The notes under the pieces were generated by a model. That model was not told the origin of the DNA. It made no database searches and saw only the letters and a program-made list of their open reading frames with translations. The position numbers and the translations under genes were made by a program. Below, piece after piece: positions 10,366 to 64,000 of a stretch of 64,000 nt of DNA. The DNA is from an uncultured Nitrosospira sp. (GTDB taxonomy: Bacteria; Nitrospirota; Nitrospiria; Nitrospirales; Nitrospiraceae): assembly GCA_900696515.1 (NCBI GenBank), contig CAADGK010000101.1:1-64000 (forward strand), in the 5' to 3' direction. Positions within the stretch are counted from its first letter, which is position 1. The number at the start of each line of letters is the position of its first letter.

Positions 10366-11643
10366 TTATGGTGCGCGTCTCGAAGAGTCCTGCAGGACCT
10401 TCTTCGGTTGTCCTACCCAGCCGTCAAGTTTGTGCTTTTTCCCTTCTCGTTGAAATGCCGCGACCAACGCGCGGGCTCTTGTCGTTCGAATGCGTCGACT
10501 CAAGGCCAGCTCTCGAACTTCCGCCATCACACGGTGCCGAATCGACCGACTAAAACTATCGATTACTTTTTTCCAGAATGGCTCATAGGCCTGATCGCGA
10601 TATCCGACGAAATCGTAGATTTCCTTTAATGCGTACGCCCTGTCTTCTATTTCTCCAGAGATATCGAGACCGAACTTCGTGGTATCATCCTGCTGGACAA
10701 TGACCTCGCGCACAGGTCCACGTTCAATCTCTCGTAACTTCTCCCGCTCATGTTGATACACTTCATGCCATGTTGGGCCCGCTTCCCAGACAATAATATA
10801 TTCCTTTGTCTGTGACGGCAGCAGTTCCAAGGACCATTTCCCAAGAAATCCAACTTTCAGCAACTCATCGTGCGCAGGCTTCAATTGGCGCCGAATTTCA
10901 GAAATAGCTCGCAACCGCTTTAAACTCAGGTTCATGGATAATTCTGCATAGGACTCACTCGCAGCTCCACGCCCCACCCGAAACAAAGCATGTAGATGTT
11001 GATAGAGAAGCTTTGTCAAATCTCGCTGTAGCGCCCAAAAGATCCGTTGATCCTGGATATGACAATGAAAATTATTCAAATTGGCCCAATACCAATCCGC
11101 TAGGCGAATCTGATGTGTCCATTGTCCTTCACTTCGATCACCAACAGATATCTCCTCCCGATCAATTCGCTCGAAGATGTGTACCCCTGTTTCCGCACGT
11201 CGGCCTTTCGCATTCTTCCTGTGTTCTTGCAACACCAAGCCACTCAGTCGATCTAAAAATTCACGCACTTCCTGCTGACGATCGCCATTCGGCGTTCGAC
11301 CAGTTAGTCGTATCAATTCGCGACCGCTAATTCTTAAAACATCAGGCACCACACCTTCCCGTTCCCACATCATAGTTAGAGCACGTTCGAATGCCCGAAA
11401 ATATTCCAAGTCTAAGACTGTAGGGTATCCCCACTTGGCACTGGGCATGATTTCAATCTCAACCTTGCGTGGGGTTCCGTCTCTTTCCATCACTCTCGTC
11501 ACGACTTTCGAAAGAGTGTCTGGACTGACCTTTCCTTTACCTGGGAGCTGCCACATAGGGATTTCTGAGATCGAGACCTCAGAATGGATTAAGCCATCCA
11601 AGACAGGAGCCGTTTTTTCTTTCTTTTGAAGAGTGGTATCCAT
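10366..11643 (-). CDS. repA: Plasmid replication initiator (RepA type)
   Basis: 425 residues, soluble. The block from SEVSISEIPMWQLP through RISGRELIRLTGR and the later WYWANLNNFHCHIQDQRIFWAL, LTKLLYQHLHALF resembles the replication initiator protein A family, which binds iterons through winged-helix domains to open the origin. The gene reads away from an array of TTGTGCGAACCCTCTCAC-type iterons and a DnaA box immediately upstream, as expected for an iteron-controlled initiator. A strongly basic C-terminus follows (RRIRTTRARALVAAFQREGKK). It lies next to parAB, giving a complete plasmid maintenance block. Confidence 0.85.
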   Translation of the reverse strand: MDTTLQKKEKTAPVLDGLIHSEVSISEIPMWQLPGKGKVSPDTLSKVVTRVMERDGTPRKVEIEIMPSAKWGYPTVLDLEYFRAFERALTMMWEREGVVPDVLRISGRELIRLTGRTPNGDRQQEVREFLDRLSGLVLQEHRKNAKGRRAETGVHIFERIDREEISVGDRSEGQWTHQIRLADWYWANLNNFHCHIQDQRIFWALQRDLTKLLYQHLHALFRVGRGAASESYAELSMNLSLKRLRAISEIRRQLKPAHDELLKVGFLGKWSLELLPSQTKEYIIVWEAGPTWHEVYQHEREKLREIERGPVREVIVQQDDTTKFGLDISGEIEDRAYALKEIYDFVGYRDQAYEPFWKKVIDSFSRSIRHRVMAEVRELALSRRIRTTRARALVAAFQREGKKHKLDGWVGQPKKVLQDSSRRAP

Positions 11644-11759
11644 CAGCGTGGTCGTAACGTATTCTTCTCTTTAACGTAAGGGTTTACGTGGGAAAGGAAT
11701 ATGGAGAAACAATAAAGAGATAAGATAATGAAAGAGATAAGGAATTGCAGATCAGACAT

Positions 11760-12065
11760 TTGTTTCAACCCTCTCACTTTGTGTCAACCCTCTATAGCCT
11801 TTGTGCGAACCCTCTCACCCGGCTCTTGTGCGAACCCTCTCGCAGTTGTTTCAAGCCTCCCAAATCGTGGACTCTAGCTTGTGCGAACCCTCTCACCTGT
11901 GGATAAATCCCTGAGAACGGCGGTCAGAGATATCATTGCAGAGTTCACATCGTTACGTGAAAGAATGGGAGATGAAAGGTTTTCGGACAAGACAAGATAT
12001 TTGTCGATTGAGGATGAGAAGGAAAAATGGGAAGAAAACGTTCAGCCATGAGAGGGTTGGAACAA
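11760..12065. other. Replication origin with iterons and DnaA box
   Basis: Between repA and parB are repeats of TTGTGCGAACCCTCTCAC. Units start at 11760, 11779, 11801, 11826, 11846 (degenerate) and 11879, at 19-33 bp intervals. An inverted unit lies at 12048-12065. A perfect DnaA box, TGTGGATAA, sits at 11898-11906 right after the last direct unit. A/T-rich sequence (11690-11755) on the repA side could be the unwinding element. Together with repA this is an iteron-type origin; the units probably also autoregulate repA. Confidence 0.85.
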
Positions 12066-12134
12066 GAAGTTTACGATGAGACATTGTCACCAGGGTTTAT
12101 GAATGTTTAAGGGTGAACGGTAAGCAGAATGCAA

Positions 12135-13223
12135 TTAGGAGGAGTCAGTTCGTTGAAAATTATCCAAGTGTTCCTGGGCCTTCCGTAAGCCTTCTTCAAT
12201 AAGCCTGATGTCATGAGCACGGTTCGGGTGAAAACGGATAACAAGGCGAAACGGACCATCGGTTCCCCTGGCATCGAATCGAACTGATTGAGCACCCTGG
12301 TTGGTACGGGGAACTCGTGTTACCTCCTCCCGAATACGGCGAGCGGTCCAGCCACCTTCGATTGCTTGGCGCGCTACCCTCTGTAGTCTGACGAGATTGG
12401 ACCGTAAGGGAAGAAGCTCCTGAACGTGTGTCAATGTTAGAGGTGATCCAGCTCCAAGCGTGAGCTCAATGATGTGTTCGGGTAAGTCAAGAACTTGGAG
12501 CGCACGAGTGATCCGCGTTTTATCACACCCGAGGCGTTGGGCCAGTTCTGATTTCAAATAGCGGTGTTGTTCAATCAGCCGCTTATAGCCCTTTGCTTCT
12601 TCATAACCAGTCAATTCTTTTCGCAGAAGATTGTCGATGAGGGCTTCGGCTGCTGCAACGTCCAGATTGTCATGCCGGATTAACGCTGGGATTGTAGCCT
12701 TTCCGAGAATCTGACATGCTCGCCATCTCCGTTCGCCTGCCACAATGTGATAACGGCCGTTGGCCACAGGACGAACATGAATGGGGGTTCGCACGCCGAA
12801 TAAGCGGATGTTCTCCAAGAGTTCAGGATCAGGTTCAGCCTGGAGTCGTGGTTGGTCCGGGCTCGGATCGAGAAGCTCGAGTCGGAGATTGTGGACACGC
12901 TCCCCTTCCGATTCGAGAGAGAGAGGGGTTTCGAGAGAAACCGAGGGGGCAGTTGTTGCTGAAGCAGCGACTGGAGCACGTGGGGGGCTTGGTGGGATCT
13001 CAGATGCGGCAGGGTGAGTCTCTGATGGCGGAGGAGTCTTATCGGTCGATGGCGAGGATGTGACGGAGGGTTTTGGCTGTGGTGAAGGGGCCGTGACGCC
13101 GAGTGTTTCAGCAAGGACTCCGTGGATTGCGGTCTCATTGGTAATACCCAATCCCATCAAAGCTCTACGGCTTTGTTCCTCGAGCTCTTGCCGTTCTTTG
13201 GATACTCGCTGCTTTCCACTCAT
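12135..13223 (-). CDS. parB: ParB-family partition protein
   Basis: 362 residues. After a low-complexity proline/serine-rich N-terminus comes the ParB/Spo0J nuclease-like domain with GRYHIVAGERRWRA and the following helix-turn-helix (LAQRLGCDKTRITRALQVLDLP). ParB binds centromere sites, spreads as a CTP-dependent clamp and stimulates ParA. The ATG overlaps the parA stop by one base. The extended linker of about 110 residues is longer than in many ParB proteins. Likely target sites are the palindromes at 14374 and 14553. Confidence 0.92.
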   Translation of the reverse strand: MSGKQRVSKERQELEEQSRRALMGLGITNETAIHGVLAETLGVTAPSPQPKPSVTSSPSTDKTPPPSETHPAASEIPPSPPRAPVAASATTAPSVSLETPLSLESEGERVHNLRLELLDPSPDQPRLQAEPDPELLENIRLFGVRTPIHVRPVANGRYHIVAGERRWRACQILGKATIPALIRHDNLDVAAAEALIDNLLRKELTGYEEAKGYKRLIEQHRYLKSELAQRLGCDKTRITRALQVLDLPEHIIELTLGAGSPLTLTHVQELLPLRSNLVRLQRVARQAIEGGWTARRIREEVTRVPRTNQGAQSVRFDARGTDGPFRLVIRFHPNRAHDIRLIEEGLRKAQEHLDNFQRTDSS

Positions 13224-14095
13224 TAGCTCACCACGACCTCAGCGGAGGGTGATTCTGATTCCGTCGCTAGTTGAGCCTCCAAGAGGTCTCGTTTCTTGCT
13301 GGCCTTCGCCACACGCGATACGACTTCAGCGGCGAGCCCGGCATAATCCTCAGCGCCCGAGGCGCGCAATTCCTGCTGGAAAATCGTCTTGTTCACCATG
13401 ATGGCTTTACCGAACTCTGTGTTCTCGCGGATGATGGTCGAAAAGACCTGATCTCCGAATGTATCCCGCATGGTCTTGACGATGGTCTTCGCCACGTTTG
13501 TACGCATGTCACAACGGGTCAGAAGGTACCCCAATAATTCGGTCTTGCGTTCTGTCTTCACGACGTTGACCTGTTGAACTTTGTTCTGTAAGGAGCGCAG
13601 GCCGTCCAAGGCGTATTTGTCTCCGGCTGCAACGGGCACGATGACGTAATTGGCTGCATACAAGGCGTTGGACATAAAGGTGCCGAGATTCGGAGGGCAA
13701 TCAATGATGACCATGTCATAGTTATTAAGTAAGGCAGACTGCCGAAACGCGGCATCCAAACCAAGCAGTGCACGGGGAGTTCCTTGGATATAACTCTCTT
13801 GTTCAAAAAGATCGATATGGGATGGAATGAGATCTAGATTTTTGGTGGAGGTTTCAACGATGGCTTCATCAAGTACCGCAGTGCCTCCAAGGACGTGGGC
13901 CAGCGTCGTCTGCCCTTTATAATCCCGACGTTCGTGAGGGAACAGGGTGGCTGTGAGGTTTGCCTGCGGATCAGCATCGACCACAAGGTATTTCTTCCCT
14001 TTACTGCTGCGAGCAAGGCCCGCGGCGAGATTCGACGCTGATGTGGTCTTTCCAACACCTCCTTTATGGGTGGCTATGGCAACTATCACCCCCAT
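13223..14095 (-). CDS. parA: ParA partition ATPase
   Basis: 290 residues. The deviant Walker A KGGVGKTT is at residues 11-18, and DADPQANLT and VIIDCPPN follow as in ParA/Soj. It has no N-terminal DNA-binding extension, so it is the short form (type Ib-like size), although its partner is a full ParB. It forms ATP-dependent nucleoid gradients that segregate plasmid copies. It is the first gene of parAB, with an upstream AT-rich region that may hold the centromere and the promoter. Confidence 0.95.
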   Translation of the reverse strand: MGVIVAIATHKGGVGKTTSASNLAAGLARSSKGKKYLVVDADPQANLTATLFPHERRDYKGQTTLAHVLGGTAVLDEAIVETSTKNLDLIPSHIDLFEQESYIQGTPRALLGLDAAFRQSALLNNYDMVIIDCPPNLGTFMSNALYAANYVIVPVAAGDKYALDGLRSLQNKVQQVNVVKTERKTELLGYLLTRCDMRTNVAKTIVKTMRDTFGDQVFSTIIRENTEFGKAIMVNKTIFQQELRASGAEDYAGLAAEVVSRVAKASKKRDLLEAQLATESESPSAEVVVS

Positions 14096-14373
14096 TGCAG
14101 ACCTCCTAGTTATGATAAAAGCAGACTAAGTGTTCATTGAAGTATAGAACTGTAGCAACAAAGTCAAGGGGAAATGCGTGGCCAAATGGTAGGACACAGT
14201 GAATTACCCACTTGTTATAGGGCCAATTAGACTTGGGAGTAGATATATTCAGTCAGATGAGGCGCCTTACTTATGATGATTATGAGGCATGAGTTATCCA
14301 AAACTCGGATCAGACCCTATGACATATCTTAAGAGACAGCCATGGTATGTCCTCCATCTCAAAACGAATAGTG

Positions 14374-14567
14374 GTTGCGTCAACGCAACTAATAAACATT
14401 ACACGATATGTAAAAGAAAACTGCATGAATTTATAAATATTGTGAATATATAAACGATATGACTGTAAAGTCATGAAAATATGTTGGAAAAGTTTTATAT
14501 AAATTAATAATATCAATTAGTTTATTCATAAATATGAAGGAACATTTAATAGGTGCGTTGACGCAAC
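14374..14567. other. Centromere-like AT-rich block bounded by two palindromes
   Basis: GTTGCGTCAACGCAAC (14374-14389) and GTGCGTTGACGCAAC (14553-14567) are related dyads in opposite orientation. The intervening 163 bp is strikingly AT-rich and includes ATGACTgtaaAGTCAT. The block lies about 280 bp upstream of parA, with no gene between 14096 and 14817. It is a candidate parS/centromere or a second unwinding region; ParB binding is inferred. Confidence 0.55.
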
Positions 14568-14817
14568 TTATCGTATTGTGCGCTCTCGACTGTATCCCAT
14601 CGATGGACCAAGGAAGAGCTCAAATGATAAGAGGTCCAAGTTAGAAAACTGAAGTTGCTGTGTATACTCTGAAGGCCAGCCAGGGATCACTCATCAATCG
14701 AGAACTCCGACCGCTATGTATGAAACTTTGACTATATAGAGCGGAATAAGTTTAGAATTGTTTTGAAATACAACGTAAAAGGTTTCAGCATATTAGGATG
14801 GGAGAGAAATGAGGTGT

Positions 14818-15528
14818 CTAAATAACGTCCCACTCCTTGAAGCGAGAGGTAATTCTCCACCGTCCGGTCAAGCGCACGAAAGCTAAATACTTGTAGATCT
14901 TCGTTTCAGTTTCAGGCGGAAGCTCGAAACCTCCTCTTTTCATATCAACCAAGAGCTGACGGGTGTCGTCAAGCAGGGCCTCGCGGATCTCAGGCTCGGC
15001 TGTTCGAATTTGCGAATCGAGGATTTCAAGATCTTTCGCTGTGAATTGATGAAAGCGATGGATCATGGTGTCTGGCGAGATGTGTGGGCGAGCCTGTGGC
15101 GAGAAGAGTCGCACTTCAAATTGACCTTTGACAAAATGACGTGGGCGAACGGTGATTTTGAGTAGGCCGGCCGTCACCAGTTGCTGTCTGGCGCGGAGTG
15201 CATTCTTTCCGCGTGTCCCCACCCATTGCGCCATATCGGCGATCGACGCCTGAACATGACTCGTGCCACATCCGTGGCTGTGTCGAAGGAATTGTACATA
15301 GAGGATCTGTTGATGAGAGGGGAGGGCGCGAAAATCAGGATGGTCAAGTGTTTGGCAGACGAGTTCCGAAAACCGAGCCGGGTTGAAGTCAGGTGGTGCT
15401 GGTCGGGTCTCTGAGGTAAGTTGGGGAGCAGATTCCCGTTCTTCAAACTCTCGGGCAAGTGCTTCTTCATCAAAGACTTCAGAAGATTTCACGATGTCCA
15501 TTGAGGCCTCAAAAGTCGATGTACGCAT
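14818..15528 (-). CDS. Hypothetical winged-helix-like plasmid protein
   Basis: 236 residues, or 227 if translation begins at the ATG at 15501, which has the better ribosome-binding site (TTGAGG). The middle part (SIADMAQWVGTRGKNALRAR, then LVTAGLLKITVRP) resembles a winged-helix DNA-binding module of replication or regulatory proteins. There are no membrane segments. Its location beside parAB suggests a maintenance or copy-control role, but I do not recognise a named family. Confidence 0.55.
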   Translation of the reverse strand: MRTSTFEASMDIVKSSEVFDEEALAREFEERESAPQLTSETRPAPPDFNPARFSELVCQTLDHPDFRALPSHQQILYVQFLRHSHGCGTSHVQASIADMAQWVGTRGKNALRARQQLVTAGLLKITVRPRHFVKGQFEVRLFSPQARPHISPDTMIHRFHQFTAKDLEILDSQIRTAEPEIREALLDDTRQLLVDMKRGGFELPPETETKIYKYLAFVRLTGRWRITSRFKEWDVI

Positions 15529-55935: not shown

Positions 55936-57393
55936 ATGAGAATCGTCTGGTTGGTCTTGAGCTGGCTCATCATCGCACCGGTGATCACCTCCGCAGGCCC
56001 AGCCAAAGAAATGACCTCGGAGGAATCCCTCCCGCCTCTTCCGTTAAGTCTGGAGGAACTCCATGCGAGAATTGATCGGACGCATCCGCTCTTACGAGGT
56101 GCCGGCGCTGAAAAAACGATCGCCCGTGGGAAGATGCTCAAGGCGCTGGGTGCCTTTGAACCCACCCTGGTGAACGACACCGAGCTTGAGCGTTTTATTT
56201 CAAGCAGTGACCCAAGTAAGGGCACGCAAACGGTGGGGTATAACGACACACTGGTGGAAGCGCTGCACCCCTTGGGTTTTAAAGGCAGCGCCGGATTCCG
56301 CCAATCGATTGGGGCTGCGAGAATTCCCGACCTCTCGTTCGGCGACGGGAATCAACAAGTTCTTCTTGCCGGGTACCTTCCGCTTCTACGAGGGCTGCTG
56401 ATGAATCCCGAGCGGGCAGAGTTCCAGCGATCCGAGTTGGCCGATCCGCTCGCAGACACCAAGATCGCCCAAACGAGGCAAGGTCTTTTCTTGGCCGCCG
56501 CCCATCAATTCTGGGAATGGGTGGCGGCTGCGAAAGCACTCGACATTCAGAAACGAGCACTCACCGTCGCGGAACAGCGCTACCAGCAAGTGGATGAACG
56601 CGCGAAGGCCGGTGCGGTCGCGCCGATCGACGTGTCGGAAGCCGGTCATGAAGTGCACCGGCGGCGGGAAGTGGCCATCGCCGCCCGACGAGTGCTCGAG
56701 CAAGAGCAGCTCAAGCTCTCCATGTTTCTGTGGGAAAACGGCGCTCCGACGATTCCGCCGATCGAGCGCATTCCGGAATTTCCCACCGCGAAGCGGATGC
56801 CGACCGCAGACGACATCACGGCACATAAGCTGGCAGCGATGAAAGAACGGCCGGAGGTCAAGGAACTGGAAGTGGAGGCCAGGATCAACAACATCGATCT
56901 TGCGTTAGCGAAGAATAATCTGCTCCCCAGCCTTAATCTTGAGGCGGCGCCGGCGCGTACGCCTGAGAAGTTTGTGCTCGGGTTAGGATATCGATTTGGC
57001 GTCGAATTACGGATTCCGCTGCTGCAACGCCGCAGTCGTGGCGAGGTGCTGCAGGCGCAAGGCCAGGCCGAACGACTCGTGGTGGCGCACCAGTACCGGG
57101 AAAACCAAGTCCTGGTCGATGTCGATAATGCTGTCTCGGCGATCGAGCGGGCGAGAGAAAGAATCGAAGAAGCGGGACAGGCGCTTCGTCTGGTCGCGCT
57201 GGTGGAAGAGGGAGAGCGGTACCGTTTCAGTGTCGGCACCAGCAGCGTGCTGTTCGTCAACCTTCGCGAACGCAATACCATCGATTCAGAGAATCAGGTC
57301 ATTCGAGCGAAGGCGGAATACCAGAAGGCTTTGGCGCAGTATCAGTGGGCCATCGCGGCCTGGGCCAAAGGCCCAAGCGAGACCATACGGTGA
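55936..57393 (+). CDS. TolC-like outer-membrane efflux protein
   Basis: 485 residues from the ATG at 55936 (AAAGGAG ahead). After a signal peptide (VLSWLIIAPVITSAG) two long helical repeats are seen (LSLEELHARIDRTHPLLRG and later LALAKNNLLPSLNLEAAP), typical of outer-membrane efflux channels. It could serve either the RND pair at 45-49 kb or the ABC/HlyD pair next door. The gap to the ABC gene is 134 bp with no gene. Confidence 0.88.
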   Translation: MRIVWLVLSWLIIAPVITSAGPAKEMTSEESLPPLPLSLEELHARIDRTHPLLRGAGAEKTIARGKMLKALGAFEPTLVNDTELERFISSSDPSKGTQTVGYNDTLVEALHPLGFKGSAGFRQSIGAARIPDLSFGDGNQQVLLAGYLPLLRGLLMNPERAEFQRSELADPLADTKIAQTRQGLFLAAAHQFWEWVAAAKALDIQKRALTVAEQRYQQVDERAKAGAVAPIDVSEAGHEVHRRREVAIAARRVLEQEQLKLSMFLWENGAPTIPPIERIPEFPTAKRMPTADDITAHKLAAMKERPEVKELEVEARINNIDLALAKNNLLPSLNLEAAPARTPEKFVLGLGYRFGVELRIPLLQRRSRGEVLQAQGQAERLVVAHQYRENQVLVDVDNAVSAIERARERIEEAGQALRLVALVEEGERYRFSVGTSSVLFVNLRERNTIDSENQVIRAKAEYQKALAQYQWAIAAWAKGPSETIR

Positions 57394-57527: not shown

Positions 57528-59228
57528 ATGGGCGACGCGCTGGGCACGCACCATCCTAGCCTGCTTGAAGTTCTGAAGCTGTTTGGAAAGTTTCTCCGCC
57601 TTGAGCAGAGAATCCTCGTTCTTGTGGTCACGTATTCGCTCGTCGTCGGACTGTTCTCCCTGATCGTCCCCCTGACCGTTCAAGAGCTCGTCAACACGTT
57701 CTCGTTTGCAATTCAGCCGGTCATGATCGCCACGCTCGCCATCATCATGGTCGTCGTGCTGGTGTTCGTCGGAGCCTTTCGGGCGCTGCAGTACTACGCA
57801 GTGGAGGTGCTTCAACGTCGACTGTTTGTGCGGACGGCCTTCGCCATGGCGCAGAAGCTGCCCCTTGTGCGGGTTCAGGGATTTAGCCCGCGCGCGTCAA
57901 ATTGCTTTATGGAAACCGCCTTCATGCAACGTGCGGTCTCGACCCTCCTGGTCGATCTGGTTCATGTGCTGGTCGGCGGCATGATCGGCATGACCATTCT
58001 GGTCTTCTATCATCCGTACTTTCTCCTCCTGAACCTCGTGCTGCTCTTGGGCTCAGCGTTCATCTTCTTTGTCCTATCTCGAGGAGGATTACGGTCGACC
58101 ATCGACATGTCTCACGCCAAGTATGATGTGCTGCATTGGATTCAGGAGCTCTCGCAGAACGTCCTCCACTTGAAAGCAACCGACAGCCACGCATTGTTGA
58201 TGCAGAAGACCGATGAACTGGCGAAGAAGTATGTAGCCTGTCGTCGCGCACGCTTTTCCGTCTTGCTGCGGCAATTTCTCGCCTCGGTGGGCGGGCAAGC
58301 GCTCGCGCATAGCGGCGCGCTAGCCTTGGCCGGTTGGCTCCTGTCCAGCGATCAGTTGACTCTCGGCCAACTTGTCGCAGTGGAGGTCGTGGTCGGGAGC
58401 CTGCTGATCAATTTTGATGCAGTGGTCAAGAGCATGGGGCAGGTGTTCTTCTTCTTCACGGCTTTGGTGGAATTGGATGCCTTCTTGTCGTTACCGAACG
58501 ACCAACGCCACTGCCCTCCAACGTCGTCGGTGACCCTCCCTGACCCACAGACTCACGGTATCCGAGTAACCTGTACTGGCGTGGGCCTGATGCAAGATGG
58601 AGTGCCGGTGTTCGAGAATTTTGACCTAGACATCGCTGCTGGTGAAAAAGTCGCGATTTATGCGAACACGACGTCGGTCAGGATGTCCTTGGCCCGGGTG
58701 CTGGCTGGTCTGGAATCGCCAACCAGTGGGATCATTGCCTATAACGACGTGGAGCTGCGGCATCTCGATCAGCACGTCGTGAATCGGTGTCGCGGTTTTA
58801 TGATTGATTCGCAGCTGTCACTGATCGACGGCACCATTGCAGACAATATCGTTTGGGGACGAGCGTATGTCTCCTACGACGATGTCCGGTGGGCGCTCCG
58901 GTTGACTCAGCTCCAGGAGGACATCGCAACACTCCCTCAAGGGATCAACTCCAATATCAGCGTGTTCGGGGAGAGCCCTGCCCCAAGCCATGTGTTGCGT
59001 ATTCTCCTTGCACGGGCCGTTCTTGGACGGCCACAGCTCTTGATCTTCGATGGCATGATTCACGACATGCCGCCTGCGCTGCGAGACCGGATCCTCCAGC
59101 AAATCTGCTCGAAAGACGAATCCTGGACGGTAATGTTCGTCTCGAGCGACCCCACGCTCACGTCTTATGTCGATCGCCGCATTGCTCTGAGCGATTCAGA
59201 TGGCTCAGCGTCGTTGTTACCCACCTGA
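57528..59228 (+). CDS. ABC exporter-like protein with eroded nucleotide-binding site
   Basis: 566 residues. The N-terminal 320 residues form a six-helix permease (LFSLIVPLTVQELVNTF, MTILVFYHPYFLLLNLVLLL). The C-terminal domain has the ABC fold, but the Walker A glycine-rich loop is replaced by YANTTSVRMSLARVLAGL, lacking the GKS/T. The signature LSGGQ is replaced by ESPAPSHVLRILLARA, and Walker B reads LLIFDG with Gly in place of the catalytic Glu. ATP hydrolysis is unlikely. It may be a structural or sensor unit with the adaptor at 59293 and the TolC-like protein. Confidence 0.85.
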   Translation: MGDALGTHHPSLLEVLKLFGKFLRLEQRILVLVVTYSLVVGLFSLIVPLTVQELVNTFSFAIQPVMIATLAIIMVVVLVFVGAFRALQYYAVEVLQRRLFVRTAFAMAQKLPLVRVQGFSPRASNCFMETAFMQRAVSTLLVDLVHVLVGGMIGMTILVFYHPYFLLLNLVLLLGSAFIFFVLSRGGLRSTIDMSHAKYDVLHWIQELSQNVLHLKATDSHALLMQKTDELAKKYVACRRARFSVLLRQFLASVGGQALAHSGALALAGWLLSSDQLTLGQLVAVEVVVGSLLINFDAVVKSMGQVFFFFTALVELDAFLSLPNDQRHCPPTSSVTLPDPQTHGIRVTCTGVGLMQDGVPVFENFDLDIAAGEKVAIYANTTSVRMSLARVLAGLESPTSGIIAYNDVELRHLDQHVVNRCRGFMIDSQLSLIDGTIADNIVWGRAYVSYDDVRWALRLTQLQEDIATLPQGINSNISVFGESPAPSHVLRILLARAVLGRPQLLIFDGMIHDMPPALRDRILQQICSKDESWTVMFVSSDPTLTSYVDRRIALSDSDGSASLLPT

Positions 59229-59292: not shown

Positions 59293-60750
59293 CTACTTTG
59301 AGCCTCGCCCTGCCTTGGGCAGGATCGTGTCGAGAATCGTGTGCGATCGTTCCAGGTAGTCGGGCGGGAAGAGGTTGAACCGGCGCCAGAGTTCATACCA
59401 GAGGGGGACGCGATTGAGGATCACCCAGCCCATCACCTTGGTGCCTTGCCGAACATGAGCTTGTTCGGGCCATGACCGATCCTCGGGATCAGGAACCACC
59501 CAGAATCGGTAATTCCCTTTGCCATCGTCTACCTGGTCGATCACTTTGATCACGCCGGAATAGGTGCCGGCCATCAGGTCGGGCCAGGCCGGTAAGGGAA
59601 TAGCGGGGATGCCATAGAAGAGGATTTTGACTTTTCGGCCAACATTCAATAAGGGTGCGTCAAGGCCGTCCGCTGCCATCTCCACGGCCTTGTCGGTACT
59701 GGTAGGAGACAGACGAAGCAAGGTATCACCGAGACGAACGGTCTCGCCGACCCCAACCTTGGTCATTTTCACGACGGTGCCGTCGATCGGGGCCACAATT
59801 TTACTGACCAACCGACGTTGCTCGGCGTTGGAGAGGCGGAGGGACACGTCGGCAAGCTGGTCCGTGACTCTGGCCGCTTCGGCCACCGAGGCATCGCGAC
59901 TCGCTTCTGCGTCGAGCAGCCGCTGTAACATTTCTGCACTGACTTGGTCGCGACCGAAGCGGAGCGATTTCATCGCCTCTTCGGCTGCTTGTAGGGCTGC
60001 TCGCATACCTTCAAGATCGGCTTGGCTGGCCGTGTCGGCTTGGATCGCCAACTCCAATTCACGCTGAGAGACCAACCCTCGCTTCGACAGTTGTTTATGC
60101 CGTTCCACATGCAGCGCGGCGGTCGTCGCAGCGATTTTGGCCGCCTCCACCTTTTGGTGCGCTTCCCGCACCTTATTACCGGCCTCGACTACGCGAGCCT
60201 CCGCCGATGGAACGGCGGCTTTCACGAGGTTCCGCATTTCAAGAATCCGTTTATCAAGCTGCTCGACCCTCATCAGCGCTGCACGCTGCGTCTTCTCCAG
60301 CGCCTTCTGGCGTTGATCCAGAAAGGTCAGGAGATGGGGCGACATGAAATTGGGATCATTGTCCTCCAGCTCAAGAATAAGCTTCCCCTCCTTCACCTGA
60401 TCACCTTCCAACACATGCCATTTCTTGATACGGCCGGTGATCTGTGACTCGATATCCTGCGGCCGCTCGTAGGGTGTATACGCCGACATCTGACCGGTCA
60501 CAGTGATGGTCTGTGTCCACGGGACAAAAATGATGGCCAGCAGGAAGAGCAAGAGCAGGCTGATTGGTAGACGCGAAGAGAATCTCCATCGCACAGGCAA
60601 CTGGGCCTCTGCCCAGGATTCAAGTTTGGCGGAGGCGGCGAGCTCGTCGACCGTGAGCGCAGTGAAACCCGCTTCGCGTTGTACGAGGGGGTGGGCCTGC
60701 TTTCCGAGGTCAAGCGCGTGGCTACTTGTGGAACCCTGTTTGGTGCTCAT
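59293..60750 (-). CDS. HlyD-family membrane-fusion adaptor
   Basis: 485 residues. A cytoplasmic tail of about 55 residues is followed by one membrane helix (ISLLLLFLLAIIFVPW) and a lipoyl domain (ESQITGRIKKWHVLEGDQVKEG). A long coiled coil follows (about 155-320), then the second lipoyl half (SKIVAPIDGTVVKMTKVGVGE) and a beta barrel. It fits a type I secretion or ABC-export adaptor. It faces the ABC gene convergently, with only 64 bp between stops. Start chosen at 60750. Confidence 0.9.
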   Translation of the reverse strand: MSTKQGSTSSHALDLGKQAHPLVQREAGFTALTVDELAASAKLESWAEAQLPVRWRFSSRLPISLLLLFLLAIIFVPWTQTITVTGQMSAYTPYERPQDIESQITGRIKKWHVLEGDQVKEGKLILELEDNDPNFMSPHLLTFLDQRQKALEKTQRAALMRVEQLDKRILEMRNLVKAAVPSAEARVVEAGNKVREAHQKVEAAKIAATTAALHVERHKQLSKRGLVSQRELELAIQADTASQADLEGMRAALQAAEEAMKSLRFGRDQVSAEMLQRLLDAEASRDASVAEAARVTDQLADVSLRLSNAEQRRLVSKIVAPIDGTVVKMTKVGVGETVRLGDTLLRLSPTSTDKAVEMAADGLDAPLLNVGRKVKILFYGIPAIPLPAWPDLMAGTYSGVIKVIDQVDDGKGNYRFWVVPDPEDRSWPEQAHVRQGTKVMGWVILNRVPLWYELWRRFNLFPPDYLERSHTILDTILPKAGRGSK

Positions 60751-61357: not shown

Positions 61358-62350
61358 ATGGTTCGCGCAAATACTCGCATGGATGACGGACCCTCGACGA
61401 AAGAACGAGCCCGCCGGATGATCGAACGGGATATGGGAGTTCTGTTACTCGAGACCCTCAATGATGCACGCACCGTGGAAGTCATGCTGAACGCGGATGG
61501 TCGGCTTTGGTGTGAACGGCTCGGGCAGGGGATGGCCTGTATCGGGACGTTTCCCGCCGCCCGCGCGGAAGCCATTATCAAAACCGTGGCGGGGTTTCAT
61601 CGCAAGGAAATTACGCGCCAGTCGCCCTACCTCGACGGAGAATTTCCCCTCGACGGCTCCCGCTTCGCCGCACAGATCCCGCCGATCGTGCCCGCTCCGA
61701 CCTTTGCGATCCGCAAACGGGCACTCGCGGTCTTTCGACTCGAGCAGTACGTGGAGCAGGGGATCATGACGGCTCGGCAACGAGACGTGCTCCTCACCGC
61801 CATTACAACCAGACGCAATATTCTGGTCGTGGGCGGGACTGGTTCGGGCAAGACCACGCTGGTGAACGCGCTGATCGACACGATGATGGACACCTTTCCC
61901 CATCTGCGCGTCTTCATCTTCGAAGACACCGCCGAAATTCAATGCCGTGCCGACAACTGCGTGCAATACCACACCACCGTGGATGTCACGATGGCGAAGC
62001 TCTTGAAGATTTCCATGCGCATGCGGCCCGACACGATTTTGGTCGGGGAAGTCCGAGGGCCGGAAGCGTTAGATCTCCTCATGGCCTGGAACAGCGGCCA
62101 TGAAGGAGGCATTGCGACCTTGCATGCCAATCATGCCAGGGCCGGACTCTCGAAGCTGGCGCTCTACATCAGCATGAACCAAGACTATCCCAAACCCATC
62201 GAACCGTTGATTGCCGAAGCCGTGCAGATCGTGGTGCACATCACACGCTGTGCGGACGGGCGCCGCGTCGAAGACATTCTCGAAGTCCAAGGCTATGAGC
62301 ACGGCCTGTACATCACTCGGTCACTGATTGAACCGAAGGAGCATACGTGA
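61358..62350 (+). CDS. trbB: TrbB, conjugative type IV secretion ATPase
   Basis: 330 residues. [18 protein letters not shown] is the Walker A motif (about residues 149-166), followed by [10 protein letters not shown] (Asp box), [20 protein letters not shown] (Walker B) and [13 protein letters not shown] (His box) of VirB11/TrbB hexameric ATPases. It powers mating-pair formation pilus assembly at the inner membrane. Its stop overlaps trbC. It is the first gene of the trb cluster that continues out of the window. Confidence 0.97.
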
Positions 62351-62754
62351 TGAGCACTACATCGCACTGGAAACAATATTTGTGGTGCGTCGGCCTCCTG
62401 CTGACGCTGTGCGCGTTCATGCTTCCGAATGAAGCCTACGCGGCGGGGACGGCCGGAGGAGGGCTCCCCTACGAATCGGCCTTGACCCGGTTACGAGCTT
62501 CGATCACCGGACCCGTCGCCTTTACCTTGTCCTTGATCGGGATCGTAGGCGCTGCAGGGGTGTTGATCTTCGGCGGCGAGTTGACGGGGTTTTTGCGCAT
62601 GATGGTCTTCCTCGTGTTGTTGATCGCCATCCTCGTGGGAGCCCAAAACGTGCTCACGACGCTCTTCGCCGCGGGCGCTGAGATCTCCTGGATCGGGGAG
62701 GGGACCGAGGCCATCGTGGCATCGTCTTGTCCTGAACTGGCGAGGTGGAGCTAA
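62350..62754 (+). CDS. trbC: TrbC, conjugative pilin precursor
   Basis: 134 residues from the ATG at 62350 (a GTG at 62347 is possible). A long signal segment ([19 protein letters not shown]) is followed by two hydrophobic helices ([19 protein letters not shown] and [19 protein letters not shown]), typical of VirB2/TrbC prepilins that are processed and, in RP4, cyclised. It lies between trbB and trbD in the standard order. Confidence 0.92.
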
Positions 62755-62756
62755 CC

Positions 62757-63068
62757 ATGGCGCTCCGGAAGATTCCGATCCGCCGCGTCATGCACCGAGA
62801 CAATCTGTTTCTGGGTGGGGACCGTGAACTGGTGCTGTTCTGTGGCGCGGTCGCGTTTGCATTGATCTTCACCGCCCAAGAACTGCGGGCGGGCATCGTC
62901 GGCGTGAGTCTGTGGTGTCTTCTTCTGTATCTCCTGCGACTCATGGCCAAAGCCGATCCCAAGTTGCGCTACGTCTATCTGCGGCAGTTGCTCTACAAAC
63001 CCTACTATCCCGCGCGCAGTACCCCCTGGCGGGTCAACAGCACCAGGCAAGGAAACCAGTACCTATGA
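62757..63068 (+). CDS. trbD: TrbD, mating-pair formation protein
   Basis: 103 residues from the ATG at 62757. A basic N-terminus (IPIRRVMHRDNLFLGGDREL) precedes two membrane helices (about 27-45 and 48-64), and a basic C-terminus (LRQLLYKPYYPARSTPW) follows, as in TrbD/VirB3. It anchors the pilus assembly machinery with TrbE. The stop overlaps the trbE start (ATGA-type). Confidence 0.92.
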   Translation: MALRKIPIRRVMHRDNLFLGGDRELVLFCGAVAFALIFTAQELRAGIVGVSLWCLLLYLLRLMAKADPKLRYVYLRQLLYKPYYPARSTPWRVNSTRQGNQYL

Positions 63069-64000
63069 TGGTGACGCTGACCGTCCTGATTGCACTGTTG
63101 GGCCTCGTCTTCCTCCTGTTGCTGATCCAACGTCTCCGGGAAGCCGACGCACAGGTGACGGTGAAGAAGCATCGCTCGCAGGACGCGGGCCTGTCGGATC
63201 TCTTGATCTATGCGGCGATGGTGGAGGATGGCGTGATCGTCGGGAAAAACGGCTCGCTCATGGCGGCCTGGATCTACCGCGGCGACGATCAAGCCAGCAG
63301 CACGGAACCCCAGCGCGAAGCGGTGTCGTTTCGGATCAATCAAGCCTTGAGCCAGCTCGGCAACGGCTGGATGGTGCATGTGGATGCGGTGCGGCGTCGG
63401 GCGGCTGGCTATGCCACGCCTGGTCTCTCCCATTTTCCCGATGCGCTGACGGCCGCGTTGGATGAAGAACGCCGTCGGCTCTTCGAAGGGCTGGGGGCCA
63501 TGTACGACGGCTATTTTGTCGTGACGCTGACGTATCTGCCGCCGTTGGTGGCACAACGCCAGTTCGTGGAGTTGATGTTCGACGATGATCAGGCGGCAGT
63601 CACGGCGCAGGACCGGACGAAAGGCCTGGTGGAACAATTCACCCGGGACTGTGCATCGTTTGAATCGCGCTTGTCATCGGTCTTTCGCCTGCAACGCCTC
63701 CGCGGACAATCTCTCATCCTCGAGGATGGGTCGACCGTCACCCATGACGAATTCCTGCGGTGGGTGCAACGCTGCGTGACCGGCCTGAATCAGCCGGTCC
63801 TCTTGCCGTCGCATCCGATGTATCTCGATGCCGTGATCGGCGGACAGGAATTGTGGACGGGCGTCATTCCGAAAATCGGCCGGCAGTACATGCAGGTGGT
63901 GGCAATTGAAGGCTTTCCCCTCGACAGTACCCCAGGCATCCTGACATCGCTCGGGGAGTTGCCTATCGAGTACCGCTGGTCGTCCCGATTTATCTTCATG
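63065..64000 (+). CDS. trbE: TrbE, type IV secretion ATPase, 3' end missing
   Basis: At least 311 residues from the ATG at 63065, still open at the window edge. One N-terminal helix (VTLTVLIALLGLVFLLLLI) is followed by the CagE/TrbE/VirB4 N-terminal domain (LIYAAMVEDGVIVGKNGSLM, LSQLGNGWMVHVDAVRR). The Walker A region would lie beyond the edge. VirB4-type ATPases energise pilin extraction. The frame overlaps trbD. Confidence 0.95.
   Translation, partial: MMVTLTVLIALLGLVFLLLLIQRLREADAQVTVKKHRSQDAGLSDLLIYAAMVEDGVIVGKNGSLMAAWIYRGDDQASSTEPQREAVSFRINQALSQLGNGWMVHVDAVRRRAAGYATPGLSHFPDALTAALDEERRRLFEGLGAMYDGYFVVTLTYLPPLVAQRQFVELMFDDDQAAVTAQDRTKGLVEQFTRDCASFESRLSSVFRLQRLRGQSLILEDGSTVTHDEFLRWVQRCVTGLNQPVLLPSHPMYLDAVIGGQELWTGVIPKIGRQYMQVVAIEGFPLDSTPGILTSLGELPIEYRWSSRFIFM

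Follow-up and report, generated by a model that had tools for sequence, protein, structure and literature searches.

The window, a 64,000-nucleotide stretch of a contig from an uncultured Nitrosospira sp. (Nitrospirota), encodes a protein of an old pseudo-ABC family that has no name as yet. Together with an HlyD subfamily of its own and TolC, this family on balance probably forms a tripartite conduit that resembles type I secretion systems (T1SSs) and no longer hydrolyses ATP. As judged from alignments, the loss of the ATPase motifs runs through the whole family in three phyla, and the ABC, HlyD and TolC genes travel together. What is new is the apparent combination of a T1SS-like tripartite architecture with an ATPase-dead ABC protein; a search of the open-access literature found no account of this pseudo-ABC family.

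The gene for the pseudo-ABC exporter-like protein (57528-59228, + strand), defined by its ORF, translation, family alignment, motif tallies and fold, is an uninterrupted reading frame of 566 aa with an AAAGGAG ribosome-binding site just before the ATG. The protein comprises an exporter-type 6-helix transmembrane domain (TMD; about residues 12-335, 57561..58532, +), delimited by the secondary structure of a model and by column comparison, and a pseudo-nucleotide-binding domain (NBD; about residues 340-556, 58545..59195, +), recognized by a fold match to the TAP1 NBD and a sub-threshold Pfam ABC_tran match. Live exporters of the same genome and order, with motifs such as GRSGSGKST / LSGGQ / LIFDE / AHR, served as the control, and in the alignment to them the Walker B Asp is the sole ATPase element of the window protein left unbroken. 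The degenerate Walker A region, EKVAIYANTTSVRMSL (58644..58691, +), has Arg in place of Lys and has lost its glycines; its core reads AIYANTTSVRM, with Gly and Lys gone. At the Q-loop position Gln has given way to Asp427 (58806..58808, +), and APSHV replaces LSGGQ at the signature position (58980..58994, +). Walker B (LLIFDG) retains its Asp and ends in Asp508-Gly509 (59049..59054, +), with Gly for the catalytic Glu, and the His of the H-loop is Ser540 (59145..59147, +). Because the live exporters of the genome itself keep their motifs, the loss is not a lineage artefact. A catalytically competent NBD (Walker A/B, LSGGQ and His), one of the marks of type I secretion, is absent from the window protein.

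An AlphaFold2 model (42 family members) shows a complete exporter fold, with a mean pLDDT of 78 and values of about 85-93 in the NBD; together with Foldseek and VIA-align it assigns the protein to the type IV ABC exporter fold. The top Foldseek matches are PCAT1 and HlyB/D, SUR2B is present in the match list, and the pseudo-NBD superposes on the TAP1 NBD with a Z of 25 and an rmsd of 2.2 Å. According to this model, chemistry is lost and the fold is retained. At the sequence level the best matches are NHLM ABC1/2, PrtD, LssB and HlyB, and a C39 domain is absent. The general Pfam model ABC_tran, the only one that matches all family members, gives 24 bits against a cut-off of 25 bits, and no Pfam or NCBIfam model matches the window protein above its cut-off. 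The best NCBIfam score is 119.6 bits against a cut-off of 853 bits, short of the curated T1SS ABC models, a failure that weighs little since live LssB-like exporters here also fall below the TIGR03375 cut-off.

The gene is flanked by those expected of a type I secretion system, so that ABC, HlyD and TolC genes are found together. A TolC-family outer-membrane channel of 485 aa (55936..57393, +; PF02321 OEP, E 1.7e-30) lies on one side, as it does in window-clade loci and most of the family. On the other, in convergent orientation, lies an HlyD-family periplasmic adaptor, also of 485 aa (59293..60750, −; PF13437 HlyD_3, E 2.6e-9), whose best NCBIfam match, TIGR01843 type_I_hlyD, scores 75 bits and is below the cut-off. 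No obvious substrate gene is recognized near the locus. An earlier note on this DNA had claimed that the Walker A GKS/T, the signature and the Walker B Glu are lost, that the fold, permease helices and frame are intact, and that a TolC-like channel and an HlyD-like adaptor are adjacent; the alignment to live exporters, the AlphaFold2 and Foldseek results with the 566-aa ORF, and the Pfam matches, respectively, bear out each of these points.

The window genome carries three dead-ABC copies, C101 (the window), C93 and C56. Its chromosomal copy (L058:1372-6067) shows three tandem TolC-like genes, followed by a dead ABC gene and HlyD. Genes for a replication-initiator-like protein, ParA, ParB and conjugation (Trb-like ATPase) occupy 10366-15528 and 61358-64000 of the window; this set of replication, partition and conjugation genes points to a plasmid or an integrative element, in which case the window copy of the ABC/HlyD/TolC system would be mobile. 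A urease gene cluster lies on the same contig at 19344-24224. A role in anti-phage defence was considered and rejected, as a PADLOC search matched nothing.

An orthologue is present in 55 of the 59 genomes of the same genus and in 11 genomes of f3, another family of the order; in a sample of the phylum, 77 of 295 genomes have one, all in families f1 and f3. One further member sits on a 5.5 kb contig in a record named Acidimicrobiia (L155), which is probably misbinned Nitrospirota. The losses are shared. Among 153 distinct sequences of Nitrospirota relatives, the catalytic Walker B Glu is never present (Gly in 151/152, Ser in 1), the H-loop His is found in 0/151 and SGG in 0/153, and Asp replaces the Q-loop Gln in 144/153. 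The Walker A Lys is retained in 126/153 and lost in the window clade; its loss, as the earlier note had it, is true of the window copy and special to some subclades. Orthologues with intact motifs were searched for and none was seen. Over 965 pairs, the median dN/dS comes to 0.11 in the NBD and 0.13 in the TMD, values that are simple NG86 counts with many pairs saturated; by these counts, purifying selection preserves the fold and the open frame across the family. The earlier note had called the protein maintained but inactive and had proposed an orthologue survey and a selection analysis as checks. Both give that claim strong sequence-based support: the same residues are lost throughout, Walker A Lys apart, and selection is purifying, with an NBD dN/dS of about 0.1. 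A comparison of NBD and TMD identity in dead and live families is confounded by divergence and was set aside.

The family extends beyond the Nitrospirota. A tblastn search of 72,556 plasmid records, the basis of the cross-phylum survey, was run with the HlyD protein, a query independent of the ABC gene. It found matches in only 20 records, from Novosphingobium, Sphingobium, Sphingomonas, Croceicoccus, Riemerella, Persicobacter and Aureibacter (Sphingomonadales and Bacteroidota). A homologous ABC gene is present in all 20, and the NBD is degenerate in every one of the 12 loci read in detail. In 11 of these (L189-L199) the degenerate ABC lies beside HlyD, and the gene order, where annotated or read, is ABC-HlyD-TolC; in the twelfth (L220) the degenerate NBD adjoins its HlyD. 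A Sphingobium ABC protein as query (E 1e-20) finds 22 plasmid records that include all 20 matched by HlyD, and one of the two extra records carries an IS3 transposase gene at the site expected for HlyD. Sphingomonadales members lack both the Walker A Lys and Walker B. Bacteroidota members keep the Walker A Lys and have lost the signature and His, and the Riemerella member still has the Walker B Glu; as far as these residues can tell, members of this group may retain some nucleotide binding.

In a tree built from the TMD only, and thus free of NBD columns, the dead proteins of three phyla lie on one side of a branch with support 95/99, sorted by phylum, with long branches meeting at the dead clade. 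On this tree the Walker A Lys changes three times, in the window clade, in f3 and in the Sphingomonadales. Four TMD residues, H162 (in YHPxF; YHPYF in the window protein), S195, W204 and Q249, are common to dead members of three phyla and mostly different in live exporters by column comparison; no role is assignable to these clade-specific residues from sequence alone. A new buried-charge ion-coupling site was also considered and rejected, as several invariant TMD residues match ordinary T1SS TMD motifs.

The most extreme state is seen in genus g3, where in three genomes that are 95-100% complete (G078, G080 and G093; L054-L056) the protein stops at the TMD-NBD linker, at 337-346 aa. HlyD and TolC genes are retained upstream of the NBD-less TMD gene. 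These genomes have no orthologous NBD elsewhere: the best remaining matches are 40%-identical ABC proteins (92 bits), which rules out an NBD split off as a separate gene. Two other g3 genomes carry the fused NBD at 96-100%. The NBD-less proteins nest within the already dead f3 clade and are still under purifying selection (omega 0.23-0.29). Gene content and tree position show the NBD to be dispensable in one lineage.

We infer substrate transport by the pseudo-ABC conduit and its energy source along the following lines. The TMDs would dimerize, either as a homodimer or as a pair of dead paralogues, and the dimer would dock the HlyD ring and TolC to give a passage from the cytoplasm to the outside. 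The dead NBD would clamp or gate the structure and might still bind nucleotide in members that keep GKT, and movement would draw on the gradient of the substrate itself or on an ion-motive force. The motor may have been lost stepwise: signature, Glu and His first, then the Walker A Lys in three independent losses, and then the NBD itself.

The neighbourhoods hint at ion, pH or inorganic-carbon physiology. An NhaR-like LysR gene, above the NCBIfam cut-off, occurs near 37 Nitrospirota loci despite rearranged gene order; the window copy has no NhaR gene in its neighbourhood. Genes for the inorganic carbon transporter proteins DabB and DabA lie 3′ of the NBD-less TMD gene in g3 (L054:4444-10399) and 5′ of the ABC gene on Sphingobium plasmid pHAL16 (L194:82-8156), in the same direction as the pseudo-ABC tripartite genes in both. 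This DabAB link is confined to two lineages, whose DabA proteins are only ~28% identical over the part compared. A Na+/H+ exchanger gene lies 3′ of one paralogue group (L049 and L186). As NhaR-like LysR, DabAB and Na+/H+ exchanger genes recur beside family members, it is plausible that ion or pH state is linked to the system as cue or substrate. A tentative wider proposal is that the family comprises trans-phylum, T1SS-derived trans-envelope conduits working without ATP as ion-coupled or passive gated channels, tied to Na+/pH and inorganic carbon and shaped by the stepwise loss of the motor.

The same neighbourhoods bear on the main rival to a conduit, a sensory role in which the pseudo-ABC protein would bind a ligand in its TMD cavity and signal via its neighbours with little or no transport. 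Some ABC proteins do couple to histidine kinases or channels. A paralogue group without HlyD/TolC precedes, in the same orientation, a PAS histidine kinase and an NtrC-type sigma-54 regulator at six loci (L042, L043, L171, L173, L177 and L178), which suggests a sensory ABC pseudo-transporter. Directly after the dead ABC in 36 loci, in many Nitrospira-family genomes, comes a two-TM four-helix-bundle (4HB_MCP) protein of ~263 aa (for example L181:8039-8824), and the NhaR-like regulators beside many loci would also fit sensing. Several paralogue groups (L042, L049, L170, L171 and L178) lack neighbouring HlyD/TolC genes. Part of the family may thus be something other than a conduit, and a sensory role may hold for these HlyD-less paralogues. 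For the family as a whole we regard sensing as unlikely: the window group and the trans-phylum members accompany HlyD/TolC, which fit a pure sensor poorly, and the TMD is the part that is always kept.

A conduit of this kind could instead be driven in trans, if the dead half paired with a live ABC half-exporter, or with some other ATPase, from a gene elsewhere. Heterodimers in which one site is degenerate are common among ABC exporters, and every genome searched has live exporters. In an ABC dimer each ATP site combines the Walker A of one half with the signature of its partner; a half that has lost signature, Glu and His, and in many cases the Walker A Lys too, should for this reason spoil both composite sites of a heterodimer. 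Several genera carry two copies in a row (L169, L172, L174, L188, L151 and L154), both of them dead, which rules out a live tandem partner. No live ABC gene lies beside the family loci, where an ABC partner gene of any kind is missing for most members, no ATPase gene is conserved at the HlyD/TolC loci, and NBD-less members exist. A replacement ATPase has a precedent in a T1SS-like set in which a SecA-like ATPase takes the place of the ABC protein (PMC4452313). On the composite-site argument a live partner elsewhere in the genome is unlikely, and we rate drive in trans as improbable, a little more so than a sensory role. The earlier note had suggested a gated channel, a substrate receptor or a partner of another ATPase; the last of these is disfavoured in its ordinary heterodimer sense by the dead tandem partners, the lost signature and the NBD-less members.

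That the NBD itself hydrolyses ATP slowly with its substituted residues is very unlikely. The Walker B Asp remains, many members also keep GKT, and a single degenerate site does not stop some ABC proteins from working, but here signature, Glu, His and Q-loop have all gone, Sphingomonadales members lack the Walker A Lys and Walker B as well, and one lineage does without the NBD. It is scarcely credible that the gene is an ordinary type I secretion exporter in decay: the window copy does share its contig with plasmid-type genes, and its Walker A is eroded further than in most relatives, but the orthologue survey and dN/dS rule out a pseudogene, with open frames and purifying selection family-wide, the same losses in three phyla and no intact orthologue.

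The ATP-less conduit that we favour matters beyond this locus. The ATP motor is what defines type I secretion, a definition called into question by a conserved conduit, adaptor and channel family that has no working motor and, in one lineage, has lost the motor domain. The family is also a natural motor-loss series, on which one could test what an ABC TMD can do alone and whether the TMD-HlyD-TolC path can open without ATP. For these proteins the current annotation ‘ABC transporter ATP-binding protein’ is misleading. The proposal can be tested, since culturable Novosphingobium and Sphingobium carry members on their plasmids.

Among known systems, Kamneva et al. (2015, PMC4452313) described T1SS-like HlyD/M50 sets with a SecA2-like ATPase and no normal ABC motor, from Nitrospirae among other phyla. 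These loci have a SecA_DEAD ATPase and no ABC protein, unlike those described here, and a SecA2-type replacement ATPase is unlikely beside the family loci, where neither such a gene nor a conserved neighbour cluster of SecA_DEAD type was noticed within the flanks examined. Type I secretion proper (HlyB-HlyD-TolC, and the PrtD, LssB, NHLM ABC1/2 and PCAT1 types) shares with the window locus the three adjacent parts, the ABC-exporter fold and a T1SS-like TMD; the window protein differs in being without all four ATPase signature elements and C39, and in falling below the model cut-off. Heterodimeric exporters (TM287/288, TmrAB, TAP and BSEP) have the same fold and also partly degenerate NBD motifs, but they keep one live composite site, whereas here both tandem copies are dead and a partner subunit with such a site is absent from the family loci. 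CFTR and SUR1/2, ABC proteins turned channel or regulator, resemble the family in using the ABC fold for gating or regulation instead of pumping. They bind nucleotide with at least one usable site, however, whereas in the pseudo-ABC family signature and His are gone and an HlyD/TolC set is present.
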